Source of the DNA: Coriobacteriia bacterium
Lineage (GTDB): Bacteria > Actinomycetota > Coriobacteriia > Anaerosomatales > Anaerosomataceae
Assembly (NCBI GenBank): GCA_030655755.1
Contig: JAUSOQ010000078.1
Coordinates: 1 to 64,000 of the forward strand
Length of the DNA stretch: 64,000 bases
Direction: 5' to 3'
Under the pieces are notes generated by a model. That model was not told where the DNA came from. It made no database searches and was given only the letters and a program-made list of their open reading frames with translations. Positions 26,063 to 31,726 of the stretch are shown here, in pieces; the first letter of the stretch is position 1; each line of letters starts with the position of its first letter. Position numbers and translations under genes: made by a program.

Positions 26063-27070
26063 TCACTCGACGATGTTCAGCCACTCGCCGCACTTCGCAC
26101 ACGACCCGGCCGATGTGTCGCGCTCCGTGATCCGATAGTGGTCCCGCCGCACAGCAACCGACCCGCACGCAGGACAGTGCGTGTCCTCGCCGCCCGGCTC
26201 ATCGATGTTGCCGAGATACACGAACCGTAGCCCCTCCTGGACACCGATGTCGCGCGCACGATGCAGTGTTGCGAGCGGAGTAGGCGGAAGGTGCGAGAGT
26301 TCGACGTACGGGAAGAAGCGCGTGATATGCCAGGGTGTCTCAGGGCCAAGCGCTTTCGCGATCCATGAGGCGATCCCCCGCAGAGTCGGCTCATCGTCGT
26401 TGATCGTCGGTATGATATTGGTGACGACTTCCACGTGCATGAGCCAACGCTTCTTCGCGCGCTCGGCCATTTCAAGAACGGGCTGCACGGACCTCACTTT
26501 GCACAGCTCACGATATGTGCGGTCGTCCAACCCCTTCACGTCCACGCGCCACACGTCGATCCGTTCGCCGAGAAGATCAAGGCCCGCTTCGGTGATGTAG
26601 CCGTTCGTGACCATGACCGTGTAAAGACCAGCGGCTCTGCACGCGTCTGAGACGTCGGCAACGTACTCGACCCAGATCACCGGTTCGTTGTAGGTGAACG
26701 CGACACCCTCACAATCGTAGCGTCGTGCGAGCGAGACCACGTCTTCCGGCGCCAGGTAGTCCAGTTCCCCGTCCGCCGGTTTCGCGCGGCTGATCTGCCA
26801 GTTCTGACAGTGTGCGCACCGCATGGTGCATCCGACGCTCCCGAGCGACAGAGCGTGGGTGCCCGGTCGGTAATGGAAGACGGGCTTCTTCTCGATAGGA
26901 TCCACCGCCACCGATGACACGCGGCCGTATGTCGTGGCTATCAGTCTTCCATCGCGATTCTCACGGACACCGCAGACGCCTGCGTGCCCGGCAGCGATAC
27001 GACAGTCATGCGGACACAGGAGGCAGTGGACACGACCATCATCGGCTTCCCACAACAACGCCTCGTGCAT
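26063..27070 (-). CDS. amrS: AmmeMemoRadiSam-system radical SAM enzyme AmrS
   Basis: This 335-residue protein has CLLCPHDCRIAAGHAGVCGVRENRDG (family Cys-rich start, 16-41), then the radical-SAM cluster CTMRCAHC (CxxxCxxC) and VAFTYNEPVIWVEY. C-terminal cysteines (CPACGSV, CAKCGEW) form a second metal site. The family is defined by co-occurrence with AMMECR1 and MEMO1 proteins; neither is visible here, and the reaction is unknown. GGGAGGT precedes the ATG. It starts 10 nt downstream of the hydrogenase-like sensor, so both are probably on one message. Confidence 0.9.
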   Translation of the reverse strand: MHEALLWEADDGRVHCLLCPHDCRIAAGHAGVCGVRENRDGRLIATTYGRVSSVAVDPIEKKPVFHYRPGTHALSLGSVGCTMRCAHCQNWQISRAKPADGELDYLAPEDVVSLARRYDCEGVAFTYNEPVIWVEYVADVSDACRAAGLYTVMVTNGYITEAGLDLLGERIDVWRVDVKGLDDRTYRELCKVRSVQPVLEMAERAKKRWLMHVEVVTNIIPTINDDEPTLRGIASWIAKALGPETPWHITRFFPYVELSHLPPTPLATLHRARDIGVQEGLRFVYLGNIDEPGGEDTHCPACGSVAVRRDHYRITERDTSAGSCAKCGEWLNIVE

Positions 27071-27079
27071 CGGACCTCC

Positions 27080-28888
27080 CTAACCGGGAGCCAGACGCGC
27101 CTGGTCGTTCCCGGCAGCCATCGCTTCGATGAGCGCAGCCTCGGCGGTCTCCAGCAGGACCAACGGCTCCTCCCGGGCAGGACTCGCACTGGTCACCCCC
27201 ACCGAGAGCGTCAGGCTCACCTCATGTGTATACCCGTCGCCCTCGACCCGAACGGGTTCCTCGCGAGCTACGTCCTTGAGTTTCTCGGCCACCGCATAAG
27301 CGGCGGTCTTGCCGATGCCGGGCAGCAGCACCGCGAAACGGTCGCCATCGTGTCGGGCAAGCATGTCGGTGGAACGCAGCTGCGTCGCCAATCGTTCGCC
27401 GAGCGCTCGCAGCACCCGGTCACCGACCGCCTCGCCCAGCGAGTCATTCACTTCACCGAAACTGTCGACATCCATCACCACGAGCGACACCGGCGTCTGA
27501 TACCTCGCGTAGCGGGCCATCTCAAGCGCCAGGCGCTCGCCGAAGATACGCACGTTCCACAGTCCGGTCACCGGATCGAGCGTTTCCAGGGTCTCGAGTG
27601 AACTCTCAGCATCACGTAAGCGGCGCCGTTGCAGCGGGAAGCACATCTCCCACGTCGAACCGCCCTGGTGGATCGCAATGGCATGCTCCACACACGTCGA
27701 AAAACCACATGCCCCGCAGTCCAAAGCGTCCTCCCGGGACATGAAACCACCTTCGGCCAGGATCTCATCTATCCGTGACTGCGTCGGTATGGGGACAACG
27801 ACCGGTGTCACCGAGAAGGAGCGCATCGTATCGATGGTCGGCAACACTCCCAGCAGCGCACGCGTGCTCACGTGCGTCTTGCCACTCGCAGCGTTCGCCG
27901 CAGACTCGATGTTGCGCTTCGCGAAAAGCGAGAGTCCGGGACTCACCGCCGGACCATCGATGCATCCCTCACAGTTGAGCATGTCGACGATGGCCGGCGC
28001 GATCTCGCCCGATGACATCGCCCTAAGCAACCGTTCGAGCGCTTCGATACCGCGAACCACATGCACCTCTGTGTCGGTCATGTCTCGGGAGGTCAATGTC
28101 TGCCGAGGAAAGCCATCGGTGAGCGAGATCTCCTTCAGCAGGCCCGAACGCTGTTTGCCGACCATCGCCGCACGTCCGTGCGTGGGTACATCCTCAAGAC
28201 CGTCCAGGAGGCGTTTCAACTCCAGGAAGTCTATGGCCGCATCCACGGCGCCGCCGAACTCGTCACTGATCGCCTCGTCTTTGCGCGCGTAGCACGGACT
28301 GACGTAGACGACAGCGATGTCATCTTTATAGAGCTCCTTGATCAACCGCGCCTGCGCGATGTAGGGAGGCACGACCGGCGCCAAAGCCGGTGCGAACTCG
28401 GGGTAGTAGGTACGCACGAAGTCAGTGACCACCGGGCACGTCGAACGCAGGATGAAAAGCATGTCCGGACGAGCGTGCAGGCGCTCGTACTCTCGCGCCA
28501 CGATCTCCTCACCCAGCAGCGTGCTCTCGACCGCATGGAACCCGAGCAGCTCGAGCGAGCGTTCGATCTGCATGGTCGTGAAAGGATGCAGGGCCGCGGT
28601 GAACTCAGTGGCGAGCAGTGCGACCACAGGCCGGGGACCGCGCAGCAGCTCGACGACGTCGGGTACGTCGTCACGGACAACGTACGCATGATTGCCGCAC
28701 TCGTTGACGCACAGTCCGCATTTCACGCATTTCTCGGTGATGACCTCGGGACGACCGTCGACCATCCGGATCGCGCGAACCGGACAGACATGCACGCAGC
28801 CCAGACAATCACGACATCGCGCCGCGCAATGGATGATCAGCGGATCCCGAAGCGACAGCGACATCACATGCGGTGCATCGGTTCCCAT
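27080..28888 (-). CDS. [FeFe]-hydrogenase-like sensor fused to a degenerate GGDEF domain
   Basis: This is a 602-residue protein. Residues 20-70 form a 2[4Fe-4S] ferredoxin (Cys25/28/31/35 and Cys54/57/60/64). Residues 85-320 form the large-subunit domain of [FeFe] hydrogenase with candidate H-cluster ligands Cys151 (STCP), Cys199 (SPCYARK), Cys306 and Cys309 (NCEGCIDGP). Residues 390-418 hold a four-cysteine loop (CGACGFSTC...C416) typical of sensory HsfB-type proteins. Residues 436-600 form a GGDEF-like domain whose signature reads DGDRF, so diguanylate cyclase activity is doubtful. HsfB-type proteins normally end in kinase or phosphatase modules. Likely role (inference): sensing H2 or redox state. 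An ATG at 28864 is an alternative start. Confidence 0.85.
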   Translation of the reverse strand: MGTDAPHVMSLSLRDPLIIHCAARCRDCLGCVHVCPVRAIRMVDGRPEVITEKCVKCGLCVNECGNHAYVVRDDVPDVVELLRGPRPVVALLATEFTAALHPFTTMQIERSLELLGFHAVESTLLGEEIVAREYERLHARPDMLFILRSTCPVVTDFVRTYYPEFAPALAPVVPPYIAQARLIKELYKDDIAVVYVSPCYARKDEAISDEFGGAVDAAIDFLELKRLLDGLEDVPTHGRAAMVGKQRSGLLKEISLTDGFPRQTLTSRDMTDTEVHVVRGIEALERLLRAMSSGEIAPAIVDMLNCEGCIDGPAVSPGLSLFAKRNIESAANAASGKTHVSTRALLGVLPTIDTMRSFSVTPVVVPIPTQSRIDEILAEGGFMSREDALDCGACGFSTCVEHAIAIHQGGSTWEMCFPLQRRRLRDAESSLETLETLDPVTGLWNVRIFGERLALEMARYARYQTPVSLVVMDVDSFGEVNDSLGEAVGDRVLRALGERLATQLRSTDMLARHDGDRFAVLLPGIGKTAAYAVAEKLKDVAREEPVRVEGDGYTHEVSLTLSVGVTSASPAREEPLVLLETAEAALIEAMAAGNDQARLAPG

Positions 28889-28897
28889 CGTCCCCCC

Positions 28898-29458
28898 TTA
28901 GGAGTCCTCAGCTAGTCGGCTGAAGCCGAGTCTCTTCAGACCAGCGTACAACGGCAGACCCACACCATAGATAACGACCGCCTCTCCGATCCCGACAGCC
29001 GCGACACCGAGCAAGTACATGCTGAGCCAGTGCCCTTCGAGGTCGATACCCAAGAAGGGAACCTCGTAAAGGCCGAAGCCCTTCAGCAGTATCGGCAGAT
29101 ACGCCGGCACGATGAGAGCATTAGCGATGACCGGCCCCGCGAGCGCGAGCAGCGGGCGCTTGCGCATCCGCCACATCCACGCGGCGCCGAGCAACGAGCC
29201 GAGCGAACCGAACACCACGTCCAGCAGCGCCAGCGGACCGACCTGCGTGAACATGAACGCGTTCGCCAGAAGCGTCCCGACGGCCAACCCGGGAATGCCC
29301 GCAGGAGTGAAGAGCGCGACCACCGTGACAGCCTCGCTGACACGGAATTGCACGAGCCCCCATCCTAACTGACTCGGAAGCTGCAAGACGAGGAGTGTGA
29401 GAGCGGCATAAACGGCGGCGATGACGCCCGCCTGGGCGATGTAGCGCGTGCGTGACAT
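28898..29458 (-). CDS. QueT-family transporter (ECF-type substrate-binding subunit)
   Basis: This 186-residue protein has six hydrophobic helices and the family-typical stretch LGWGLVQFRVSEAVTV in its first third, followed by GIPGLAVGTLLAN. QueT proteins are predicted S components that take up queuosine precursors with a shared ECF module, which is not in the window. The ATG at 29458 has AAGGAG 5 nt upstream, located inside the end of the kinase gene. I see no preQ1 riboswitch, which fits its place inside an operon. Confidence 0.8.
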   Translation of the reverse strand: MSRTRYIAQAGVIAAVYAALTLLVLQLPSQLGWGLVQFRVSEAVTVVALFTPAGIPGLAVGTLLANAFMFTQVGPLALLDVVFGSLGSLLGAAWMWRMRKRPLLALAGPVIANALIVPAYLPILLKGFGLYEVPFLGIDLEGHWLSMYLLGVAAVGIGEAVVIYGVGLPLYAGLKRLGFSRLAEDS

Positions 29459-29460
29459 GT

Positions 29461-30960
29461 TCACTCCTTGATACGGGTGCGTGGCAGTTCGATGTGGAAC
29501 GTCGTACCCACTCCAACACGACTCGAGACCGTGATCGAGCCTTGGCTCATGTCAACGATATGCTTTGCTATCGCGAGACCCAGACCGAACCCACCGGTGT
29601 CTTTGGAACGGGATGCATCACTGCGATAGAAGCGTTCGAACACGTTCGGCAGATCCTTCTCGGGAATGCCGATGCCCGTGTCCTTGATCTCAACGCTCGC
29701 ACGGTCCCGCCGCTTGTGTGTCTCGACAACGATGCTACCGCCGGCCGGCGTGTACTTGCCGGCGTTGTCCAGCAAGATGCCGAGAAGCTCCTCGATGCGA
29801 TCCGGATCACCAACGACCCACAACGGTCCCTCATCAGGACCGGTGAACTCCAGGCCTTTGCCGATGTAACGTGTTGCCGCGGTCGCAAGCGCCTCGCGAC
29901 TGAGCGCATTGATGTCGTAGCGGACATGTCGGTACTCGAGCATCTCTTCACTACGGATCATCGACAGGAGATCGCTGCAGAGTTTCGCCATCCGGCGGGA
30001 CTCACGGTCTATGGCGGCCACCGCCTCGTCACGTGTGGTCGGGTCTTCAGAACCCCAGTCGCGCAGGATGTTGACGTAGCCCCGTATACCGGCGACCGGT
30101 GTCGCCAACTCATGCGAAGCATCAGCCACGAACCGTGTCTGTGCCTCCGCTCGAAGCCTGAGACGGTCCATCAGGTTGTTGAGCGAGCGCGCGAGTTCGG
30201 TGATCTCATGCTCGCCCTCCTCGGGCAGACTGATATCGAGTTGACCAGCGTCGATCGAATCGGCCGCCATACGGACATTGTCCACGAGCGAGAGCACCCA
30301 ACTCATGATGATCTGCATCATGAGGATAGCAACGAGCAGCGCGAAGGCGGCGGCGATGAACATGGGCGCCCGGGCCGAGTCAAGGATCGCTTCTTCTTTG
30401 TCTGGAGTGTAGACCACATCCAGCACACCCTGTGTCCGGTCCGGGAGTATGAGCGGCACGTGGACGACATACGTGCCGAGGTCAGCGCTGGTGAACATCC
30501 CGGTGATCGCACCCGTCGAACCCGGGCCGGACTGTATGGGCTGCTGGCGCTCGATCGCAAGCCTTCGCGGTACCTCTAGCTCGCTTACGCCCGCCTTATC
30601 GCTGTACCACACAAGCCGCAGCACGCCGCCCTCGTCTTCCAAGTAGAGGGCGTACGCACCTTCCTCTGCACCTCCGGAGGCCAGAATGTCAGGGATCGCG
30701 CGCAGAAGCTGGCGTTCAGCTTCATGTTCCCGCTCGACGCCTTCGAGGCCCTTGGCTGCGGCGTCGAGCTTGACGCTGGTGGTGGTGCGCGCGATCGAAC
30801 GCGAGGCTATCTGGGTAAGCCGCCACGTCGTGTCCTGCGCGGACCGCGACATGCCGTCTGCAACGAAGAAGTACGTGGCAAGCGTGACGCTACTGACGAG
30901 GAGGAGCGAGAAGACGCCCGCCAGGTAGAGGACACGCGCGCGGATCGAAGAGAAGCGCAT
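29461..30960 (-). CDS. Membrane sensor histidine kinase (HAMP-HisKA-HATPase)
   Basis: This 499-residue protein has a transmembrane helix at about 10-34, an extracytoplasmic sensor region of about 165 residues, a second helix at about 202-226 and HAMP (230-282). HisKA follows with the phospho-accepting His in FVADASHELATPVAGIRG, then HATPase with N box (LLDNAGKYT), DTGIGIPE and GFGLGLAIAKHI. It forms a canonical pair with the OmpR-type regulator, whose stop directly precedes its ATG. The signal is unknown. Sequence resembles PhoR/MprB-like kinases of Gram-positives. Confidence 0.93.
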   Translation of the reverse strand: MRFSSIRARVLYLAGVFSLLLVSSVTLATYFFVADGMSRSAQDTTWRLTQIASRSIARTTTSVKLDAAAKGLEGVEREHEAERQLLRAIPDILASGGAEEGAYALYLEDEGGVLRLVWYSDKAGVSELEVPRRLAIERQQPIQSGPGSTGAITGMFTSADLGTYVVHVPLILPDRTQGVLDVVYTPDKEEAILDSARAPMFIAAAFALLVAILMMQIIMSWVLSLVDNVRMAADSIDAGQLDISLPEEGEHEITELARSLNNLMDRLRLRAEAQTRFVADASHELATPVAGIRGYVNILRDWGSEDPTTRDEAVAAIDRESRRMAKLCSDLLSMIRSEEMLEYRHVRYDINALSREALATAATRYIGKGLEFTGPDEGPLWVVGDPDRIEELLGILLDNAGKYTPAGGSIVVETHKRRDRASVEIKDTGIGIPEKDLPNVFERFYRSDASRSKDTGGFGLGLAIAKHIVDMSQGSITVSSRVGVGTTFHIELPRTRIKE

Positions 30961-31641
30961 CTATCCCCTCGCGAAGAAGTATCCGACTCCTCGGATCGTC
31001 TGGATGATCTTGTTGTCGCGATCGCCGATCTTGTTACGCAGGTGGCAGATGAAGACCTCGATGACGTTGCTGTCAGTGGTGTGCTGACCACCCCAGACGG
31101 CCTCAAGGATCTCATCACGGGAGATCACCCGACCGGCGTTCTGCACGATGTAGCACAGAAGATCGAACTCCTTGGCGGTGAGGTCGAGCACCCGACCCTC
31201 GAGCGTCGCCTCGCGCTTGTCGATGTCGATGCGTACGCCCGAAGCCTCGTAGGGTGCACTCGGCCCGGCAGCCTTGGCGCGCTTGAGCAGCGCACGCACA
31301 CGCGACAGCAGTTCAGGTATCTCGAAGGGCTTGCGCAGATAGTCGTCGGCGCCTGCCTCGAAACCAGAGACGACATCGTGGGTCTCCGCACGAGCAGTGA
31401 GCATCAAGATCGGCACATCGGAGCCGCGCTTGCGAATGTGCTTCGCAACGTCGATGCCATCGATCCCGGGGAGCATGAGATCCAAGATGACGAGATCCAC
31501 CTCATTGCCGTTCATAAGGTCGATCGCCGCAGGTCCGTCGCCCGCCCTCAGCACGCCGTATCCCTCGTGCTCAAGTTCCAGCTCGATGAAGCGGGCAATC
31601 GTGGCGTCGTCCTCGACAATGAGAACACTGGGTTCCGTCAT
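30961..31641 (-). CDS. OmpR/PhoB-family response regulator
   Basis: This 226-residue protein has a receiver domain (IVEDDATIARFIELE, Asp in LVILDLMLPGIDG, Lys in DYLRKPFE) and a winged-helix output domain (LTAKEFDLLCYIVQNAGRV, SNVIEVFICHLRNKIG, IQTIRGVGYFF). It controls transcription in response to the adjacent kinase. Start ATG 31641 is chosen; a GTG 6 nt earlier is closer to the GGGGAG site and cannot be excluded. The 85-nt gap upstream to asd should hold the promoter. Confidence 0.93.
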   Translation of the reverse strand: MTEPSVLIVEDDATIARFIELELEHEGYGVLRAGDGPAAIDLMNGNEVDLVILDLMLPGIDGIDVAKHIRKRGSDVPILMLTARAETHDVVSGFEAGADDYLRKPFEIPELLSRVRALLKRAKAAGPSAPYEASGVRIDIDKREATLEGRVLDLTAKEFDLLCYIVQNAGRVISRDEILEAVWGGQHTTDSNVIEVFICHLRNKIGDRDNKIIQTIRGVGYFFARG

Positions 31642-31726
31642 GGTCACACAGCTCCCCTCAGAGAATGCCTCTTTGCAGAGACAGAACGCTCCAAATCGTC
31701 GTCCGTTGCGGCCTCGTTCCTTAATA

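Follow-up and report, generated by a model that had tools for sequence, protein, structure and literature searches.

The gene at positions 27080–28888 of the window, the 64,000-nucleotide stretch of Coriobacteriia DNA analysed here, encodes a protein (P0001) in which a hydrogenase-type domain is joined to a GGDEF domain. The initial annotation described it as an [FeFe]-hydrogenase-like sensor whose GGDEF output would tie H2 or redox sensing to nucleotide signalling. The architecture raises two questions: which signal is received, and whether the output domain makes or binds a cyclic dinucleotide.

P0001 is encoded on the reverse strand by a single intact open reading frame of 602 amino acids, with an ATG start a short way downstream of the purine-rich sequence AAGGGGGG. 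All four modules named in the annotation, a ferredoxin, a hydrogenase large-subunit domain (H-domain), a four-Cys loop and a GGDEF domain, were matched by Pfam in that order: Fer4_10 (1.6e-6), Fe_hyd_lg_C (residues 88–313, 6.2e-33), FeS PF04060 (residues 389–418, 3.8e-6) and GGDEF (residues 437–595, 1.9e-32). The feared lack of a significant Fe_hyd_lg_C or GGDEF match did not arise, and the positions given for the H-domain cysteines (151, 199, 306 and 309), the loop cysteines (391, 394, 399 and 416), DVDSFGEVND (473–482) and DGDRF (514–518) proved exact. No PAS domain was detected in P0001 in the Pfam scan. Among NCBIfam models, named hydrogenase families matched only below threshold (best FeFe_hydrog_B1, 131 bits against a cut-off of 450), and GGDEF matched at the domain level. 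The features of the gene are as follows.

27080–28888, reverse strand: whole gene of P0001, ferredoxin, H-domain, Fe-S loop, helix and GGDEF domain, 602 amino acids
28688–28825, reverse strand: N-terminal ferredoxin module, residues 22–67, predicted to hold two [4Fe-4S] clusters (Pfam and eight invariant Cys)
27950–28627, reverse strand: Fe_hyd_lg_C (H-domain), residues 88–313, with Cys151, 199, 306 and 309 (Pfam, Cys invariance and structure match)
27950–27973, reverse strand: L3 motif CEGCIDGP, residues 306–313, one residue shorter than the CxxxC of groups A, C and D (alignment)
27635–27724, reverse strand: C-terminal Fe-S loop Cx2Cx4Cx16C, residues 389–418 (PF04060)
27587–27640, reverse strand: predicted helix 417–434, from the last Fe-S Cys to the GGDEF domain, a candidate signalling helix (AlphaFold2 secondary structure; putative role)
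27104–27580, reverse strand: degenerate GGDEF domain, residues 437–595 (Pfam and structure match)
27365–27376, reverse strand: RxxD (RSTD, 505–508), candidate c-di-GMP I-site (R and D invariant in 51 of 51 members)
27335–27349, reverse strand: degenerate signature DGDRF (514–518) replacing GGDEF (sequence)

The AlphaFold2 model of P0001, computed from an input of 58 sequences, has a pLDDT of 93 and a pTM of 0.81. The model bears out the assignment of the H-domain: residues 8–360 match the solved [FeFe]-hydrogenases with Z-scores of about 32–34, an r.m.s.d. of 3.1–3.5 Å and 17–20% identity, the individual matches including CbA5H (9f46; Z-score of 33.9 and r.m.s.d. of 3.4 Å over 343 residues) and CpI (4xdc; Z-score of 32.7). 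Residues 431–602 match the GGDEF domain of PleD (Z-score of 28.3 and r.m.s.d. of 1.4 Å over 170 residues). The eight ferredoxin cysteines (25, 28, 31, 35, 54, 57, 60 and 64) are invariant; together with the four of the H-domain and the four of the Fe-S loop they make 16 that are invariant in 35 orthologues, and the same 16 are kept in an alignment of 58 homologues down to 28% identity, kinase-fused proteins included. Loss of the four H-domain cysteines in orthologues, the other outcome that could have overturned the assignment, did not occur. Group C and D sensors are reported to carry the same Cx2Cx4Cx16C loop motif (PMC8163306).

The suggested census of this domain order across Coriobacteriia placed the protein in 62 of 298 sampled genomes of the class, all 62 within the window's order, Anaerosomatales, and in single copy save for two genomes in which the gene is split over two contigs. 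Counted by Fe_hyd_lg_C family, the gene is present in 63 of 69 Anaerosomatales genomes, again in single copy and as the sole Fe_hyd_lg_C protein; no genome of the 69 holds a second, different Fe_hyd_lg_C protein. The order has cultured members, among them Anaerosoma tenue and Parvivirga hydrogeniphila. Public genomes were scanned with an H-domain profile, seeded with C[ED]GC[IV]DGP and PC[YF]ARKDE and hence biased towards CxxC members. The scan recovered four further proteins of the GGDEF type, encoded in other Actinomycetota-like genomes (L131, L133, L138 and L161), and about 28 more distant members with 27–35% identity. The hosts of the latter are Myxococcota, Deltaproteobacteria, Dehalococcoidia, Clostridia, Gemmatimonadota, Ignavibacteria, KSB1, Riflebacteria and one archaeon. 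Among the distant members scanned with Pfam, eight carry HisKA and HATPase domains (one with an additional PAS and one with an additional GAF domain), and the archaeal member has a weak MCPsignal match. No relatives were found on viral contigs.

A tree of 92 sequences was computed from the Fe-S and H-domain part, with SH-aLRT support and a quick search. In it, the CxxC proteins with a GGDEF fusion group together (support of 100), as do those with a kinase fusion (95). The sister group of these two clades combined (91) consists of CxxxC group C-like proteins, several with a PAS domain. Group D-like sequences form a separate clade. The phylogenetic placement against groups C and D called for in the annotation thus puts P0001 beside PAS-type group C-like sequences and apart from group D; a long-branch warning at the join of groups A and D leaves the CxxC clade unaffected.

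Aligned with the group A, C-like and D-like sequences of the fetched genomes, P0001 reads RSTCP at L1, PCYARK at L2 and NCEGCIDGP at L3, so that the last H-cluster Cys pair is indeed CxxC and not CxxxC, as had been noticed. Every A, C and D sequence in which L3 is covered has CxxxC, and every sequence of the CxxC clade has one residue fewer; in this alignment the deletion is a marker of the whole clade, with its GGDEF-fused and histidine-kinase-fused branches. The residue after PCxA in L2 is Lys in the canonical motif and corresponds to K358 of CpI, which contacts a cyanide ligand. Anaerosomatales have Arg at this position and the four outer GGDEF-type members either Ala or Met; in kinase-fused members it varies among Lys, Arg and Gln. 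A group D-like sequence (L256) likewise has Arg here, so the L2 residue is by itself not decisive.

Assembly of the [2Fe] part of the H-cluster is established to require HydE, HydF and HydG (PMC3105041). None of the 69 Anaerosomatales genomes has a match to HydG above the curated cut-off, to HydF at an E-value of 1e-40 or to HydE at 1e-20, with Thermotoga maritima, the positive control, exceeding the cut-off in each search. One of the 69, a single-contig genome rated 100% complete (G003), carries a P0001 orthologue and is devoid of HydE, HydF and HydG matches. Candidates below threshold were rejected. For HydF, the genome that contains the window has partial GTPase-domain matches far below the cut-off; for HydG, four matches in the order cover the model partially (E-values down to 7.6e-57, 161–192 bits against a cut-off of 312), and we take these to be related, ThiH-like radical SAM proteins.

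Among the genomes of distant CxxC members, HydG is present in 14 of 30, and all 14 also hold strong group A-type hydrogenases. HydG was found in 14 of the 17 with a group A hydrogenase and in 0 of the 13 without (Fisher p = 5e-6, for rows that are not independent, given the relatedness of the genomes and the many draft assemblies among them). By these counts HydG follows the group A enzymes, not the CxxC proteins. The three genomes with a group A hydrogenase and no HydG match (G300, G306 and G318) presumably reflect assembly gaps. A further Fe_hyd_lg_C family (L205, L206 and L207; 431–465 amino acids, L3 CLxCPDGCIGG) was seen in three genomes with no HydG match.

The output domain of P0001 has the GGDEF fold, with DGDRF in place of the GG[DE]EF signature and FGEVND in place of the FK..ND core. 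That the DxDxFKxxND motif is altered had been noticed in P0001 itself; the comparison confines the loss to the window's family, and its sisters keep an intact GGDEF domain. K478 (FK to FG, FS, FA and others) and E517 (GGDEF to xGD[RQT]F or VADQF) are lost in 23 of 23 window-family sequences, as is K590, the lysine of AK..G, where covered. Of the other GGDEF-type sequences, the 28 whose domain could be read come from within the order and beyond it, and all retain FK..ND and GGDEF; the 27 of these that extend to K590 retain it too. Positions invariant in the others and free in the window's family comprise F477, K478, N481, D482, G485, H486, G489, G514, G515, E517, Y587, K590 and nine more; by comparison with PleD, we take them to be largely the GTP-handling core.

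R505, D508, R512, D516 and F518 are invariant in both sets. R505 and D508 of RxxD, kept in 51 of 51 members, lie five residues before the signature, where PleD-type cyclases have their product-binding I-site; RSTD thus adds to the inactive site the second mark of a degenerate-GGDEF receptor. The metal-site residues Asp473, Asp490 and Asp516 are also invariant in the window's family, in which 27 of the 162 positions of the domain are invariant overall. Mean identity there is 0.555 for the GGDEF domain against 0.676 for the H-domain (0.568 and 0.568 in sister families), and no frameshifts or internal stops were found in family members; by these measures the domain drifts faster than the H-domain and yet is not decayed. 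The included members form one supported set of ten rows (98) in the tree, as expected if the active site was lost once. Judged on these alignments, the degeneracy is genuine and clade-specific, and a switch from cyclase to receptor in the window's family is its best reading. The annotation's suggestion of a receptor rather than a cyclase gains from this: P0001 is probably no cyclase. The genome that contains the window encodes 13 GGDEF domains, at least seven of them with a GGDEF or GGEEF signature among the readable motifs, and c-di-GMP is therefore very probably made there.

We consider it fairly probable that P0001 is a cytosolic Fe-S redox sensor derived from an [FeFe] H-domain without the [2Fe] subcluster and that, in the window's family, it serves as a joint receptor of redox state and c-di-GMP. 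The modules, the Cys conservation, the missing maturases, the L3 deletion and the clade-specific loss of the active site can be read from the sequences. From these we infer a cluster content that includes a [4Fe-4S] cluster in the old cubane site, a redox signal, its transmission through the helix, c-di-GMP binding at RxxD and a partner. P0001 would no longer carry the [2Fe] organometallic part of the H-cluster. By prediction its 16 cysteines bind four [4Fe-4S] clusters, with the ferredoxin accounting for two and the old cubane site and the Cx2Cx4Cx16C loop for one each. Reduction by a low-potential donor, or oxidation, would alter the state of the clusters. Helix 417–434, at the start of which the loop cluster would lie, could relay this change to the GGDEF domain. 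Where that domain is intact (most Anaerosomatales and other Actinomycetota), the output would be c-di-GMP synthesis. With the GTP-handling residues lost and RxxD kept, the output in the window's family would most likely be binding of c-di-GMP supplied by the genome's other cyclases, and the joint receptor would act on a protein partner. Two points count against parts of this scheme: RxxD is common among GGDEF domains generally, and R and D may be retained for a structural reason. Moreover, the C-terminal cluster of TamHydS shows no redox change with H2 (PMC13104023), which counts against assuming a redox role for the loop cluster.

Regarding the signal, the main competing account is that P0001 is a genuine H2 sensor, in which a maturation route not yet recognised supplies a complete H-cluster and H2 binding tunes the GGDEF domain. 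The kept fold and four H-domain cysteines would suit an H-cluster if such a route existed, and the sister group C proteins have been proposed as H2 sensors (PMC10055695, PMC8924675). H2 is also relevant to these organisms: two isolates of the order grow on it with [NiFe] enzymes (PMC9686372), and 67 of the 69 order genomes have a NiFeSe_Hases match. These observations, however, indicate that H2 matters to the order through another, non-[FeFe] enzyme type. P0001 lacks the L3 CxxxC, the Lys of L2 PCxxK and a host with HydEFG, and the order genomes hold no other [FeFe] enzyme with which maturases could be shared. Given the absence of HydE, HydF and HydG from all 69 genomes and the L3 deletion that marks the clade, P0001 is unlikely to have a true H-cluster and so to sense H2, and we give this account only a slim chance. 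The hydrogenase-derived sensor with GGDEF output put forward in the annotation thus survives as a group C-like GGDEF fusion with conserved cysteines, and H2 as its signal is not supported; [4Fe-4S] clusters that sense redox state fit better. A still smaller chance falls to an Fe-S scaffold or carrier that uses the hydrogenase fold in the manner of Nar1 and is not a sensor. Eukaryotes do have hydrogenase-like proteins with no H2 function (PMC8924675), but here a signalling output is always fused: GGDEF, HisKA/HATPase in the sister clade, and a weak MCPsignal match in the archaeal member.

For the output, the intact fold and the invariant metal-site aspartates would allow P0001 to make a cyclic dinucleotide still, at a low rate or with changed specificity. 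This is improbable given the loss of E517, K478, K590 and the constraint on both glycines in the 23 family sequences, where all 28 sisters keep FK..ND and GGDEF. A structural or dimerisation remnant, with signalling by protein contacts and no nucleotide, would explain why conservation of the GGDEF domain falls below that of the H-domain in this family and equals it in sister families. We regard it as an outside chance, since R505, D508, R512, D516 and F518 stand among just 27 of 162 invariant positions and the genes are free of internal frameshifts and stops. The joint redox and c-di-GMP receptor remains the reading we prefer for the window's family. The broader proposal, that an order-wide, H-cluster-free, hydrogenase-derived sensor of redox state (or of another Fe-S ligand) controls c-di-GMP and that one family's cyclase turned receptor, is more tentative, and we would put it slightly below an even chance.

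P0001 shares with group C (M2f) sensors such as TmHydS, its sister clade, the N-terminal 2[4Fe-4S] module, the four-Cys H-domain and Cx2Cx4Cx16C; unlike them, it has no PAS domain, has CxxC at L3 and Arg at L2, comes from an order with no HydEFG and has a GGDEF output. Group D (M2e) proteins such as TamHydS have the same three Fe-S modules (PMC8163306, PMC13104023), but are about 450 amino acids long, with no output domain, a CxxxC and a separate position in the tree. The nearest clade, the histidine-kinase-fused CxxC proteins of Myxococcota, Deltaproteobacteria, Dehalococcoidia, Clostridia and others, has the CxxC deletion and Fe-S modules of P0001; it differs in its HisKA/HATPase output, and many of its members come from genomes with group A hydrogenases and HydG. 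These proteins may correspond to the kinase-linked class C1 of HydDB. Several of their genes (L135, L141, L143, L144, L146 and L158) adjoin group A hydrogenase genes by their coordinates, and this branch may therefore still regulate hydrogenases. [NiFe] group 2c (diguanylate-cyclase-linked in HydDB) likewise pairs a hydrogenase-type sensor with a proposed c-di-GMP output, although its metal site and protein family are unrelated. Degenerate GGDEF receptors of c-di-GMP such as PopA resemble P0001 in their dead active site and retained RxxD. P0001 differs from them in its hydrogenase-derived Fe-S input, and its c-di-GMP binding is predicted from sequence.

The [FeFe] classes of HydDB (2016) are C1 (kinase-linked), C2 (chemotactic) and C3 (phosphatase-linked); it lists diguanylate-cyclase linkage only for [NiFe] 2c and no GGDEF-linked [FeFe] class. 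No description of a GGDEF-fused [FeFe]-type protein was found in the literature searched, which was mostly open-access. Sensory [FeFe]-hydrogenases are assumed to be H2 sensors, a role still termed putative (PMC8924675). If the proposal is true, the CxxC deletion would mark a widespread class of hydrogenase sensors, free of the H-cluster and with kinase or cyclase outputs, that is currently filed among the H2 sensors. The clade would separate the sensor scaffold from the H-cluster, conserved as it is in an order unable to mature one by any known route. The L3 CxxC could then serve surveys as a sequence mark to distinguish likely non-H2 sensors from H2 sensors, and close relatives with live and dead GGDEF domains offer pairs for a direct test of how a cyclase becomes a receptor.

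The immediate neighbours of the gene in the window are as follows.

26063–27070, reverse strand: downstream neighbour, radical SAM enzyme of the AmmeMemoRadiSam system (TIGR04337), 9 bases from P0001, in order-wide synteny
28898–29464, reverse strand: upstream neighbour, QueT-like transporter, 9 bases from P0001
29461–31647, reverse strand: histidine kinase (29461–30960) and OmpR-type response regulator (30961–31647), upstream of QueT

A block of aspartokinase, ASD, response regulator, kinase, QueT, P0001, radical SAM, glycosyltransferase-like and TauE genes is kept across the order. Because about ten surrounding genes are syntenic in this way, adjacency says little and no functional link is drawn; the neighbours do not name the signal. 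No riboswitch was found in the window with Rfam. The TIGR04337 radical SAM gene lies directly 3' in nearly all order members with a contig that reaches that far. In many lineages outside the window's family an HD-GYP gene lies between the kinase and QueT. A PocR-HD-GYP gene occupies this place in L102 (3555–5264) and, with an added GAF domain, in L107 (3115–5265); the insertion occurs in many order members with an intact GGDEF domain and in none of the window-family members seen.

The genome that contains the window also encodes a [NiFe] large subunit (L269, G000:C36:16729–18231) with an in-frame TGA at the first Cys of the C-terminal DPCxxC (DP*IGC), as does L270. This position suggests that both are probably selenocysteine [NiFeSe] enzymes. 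The same single in-frame TGA is present in most large subunits of Anaerosomatales.
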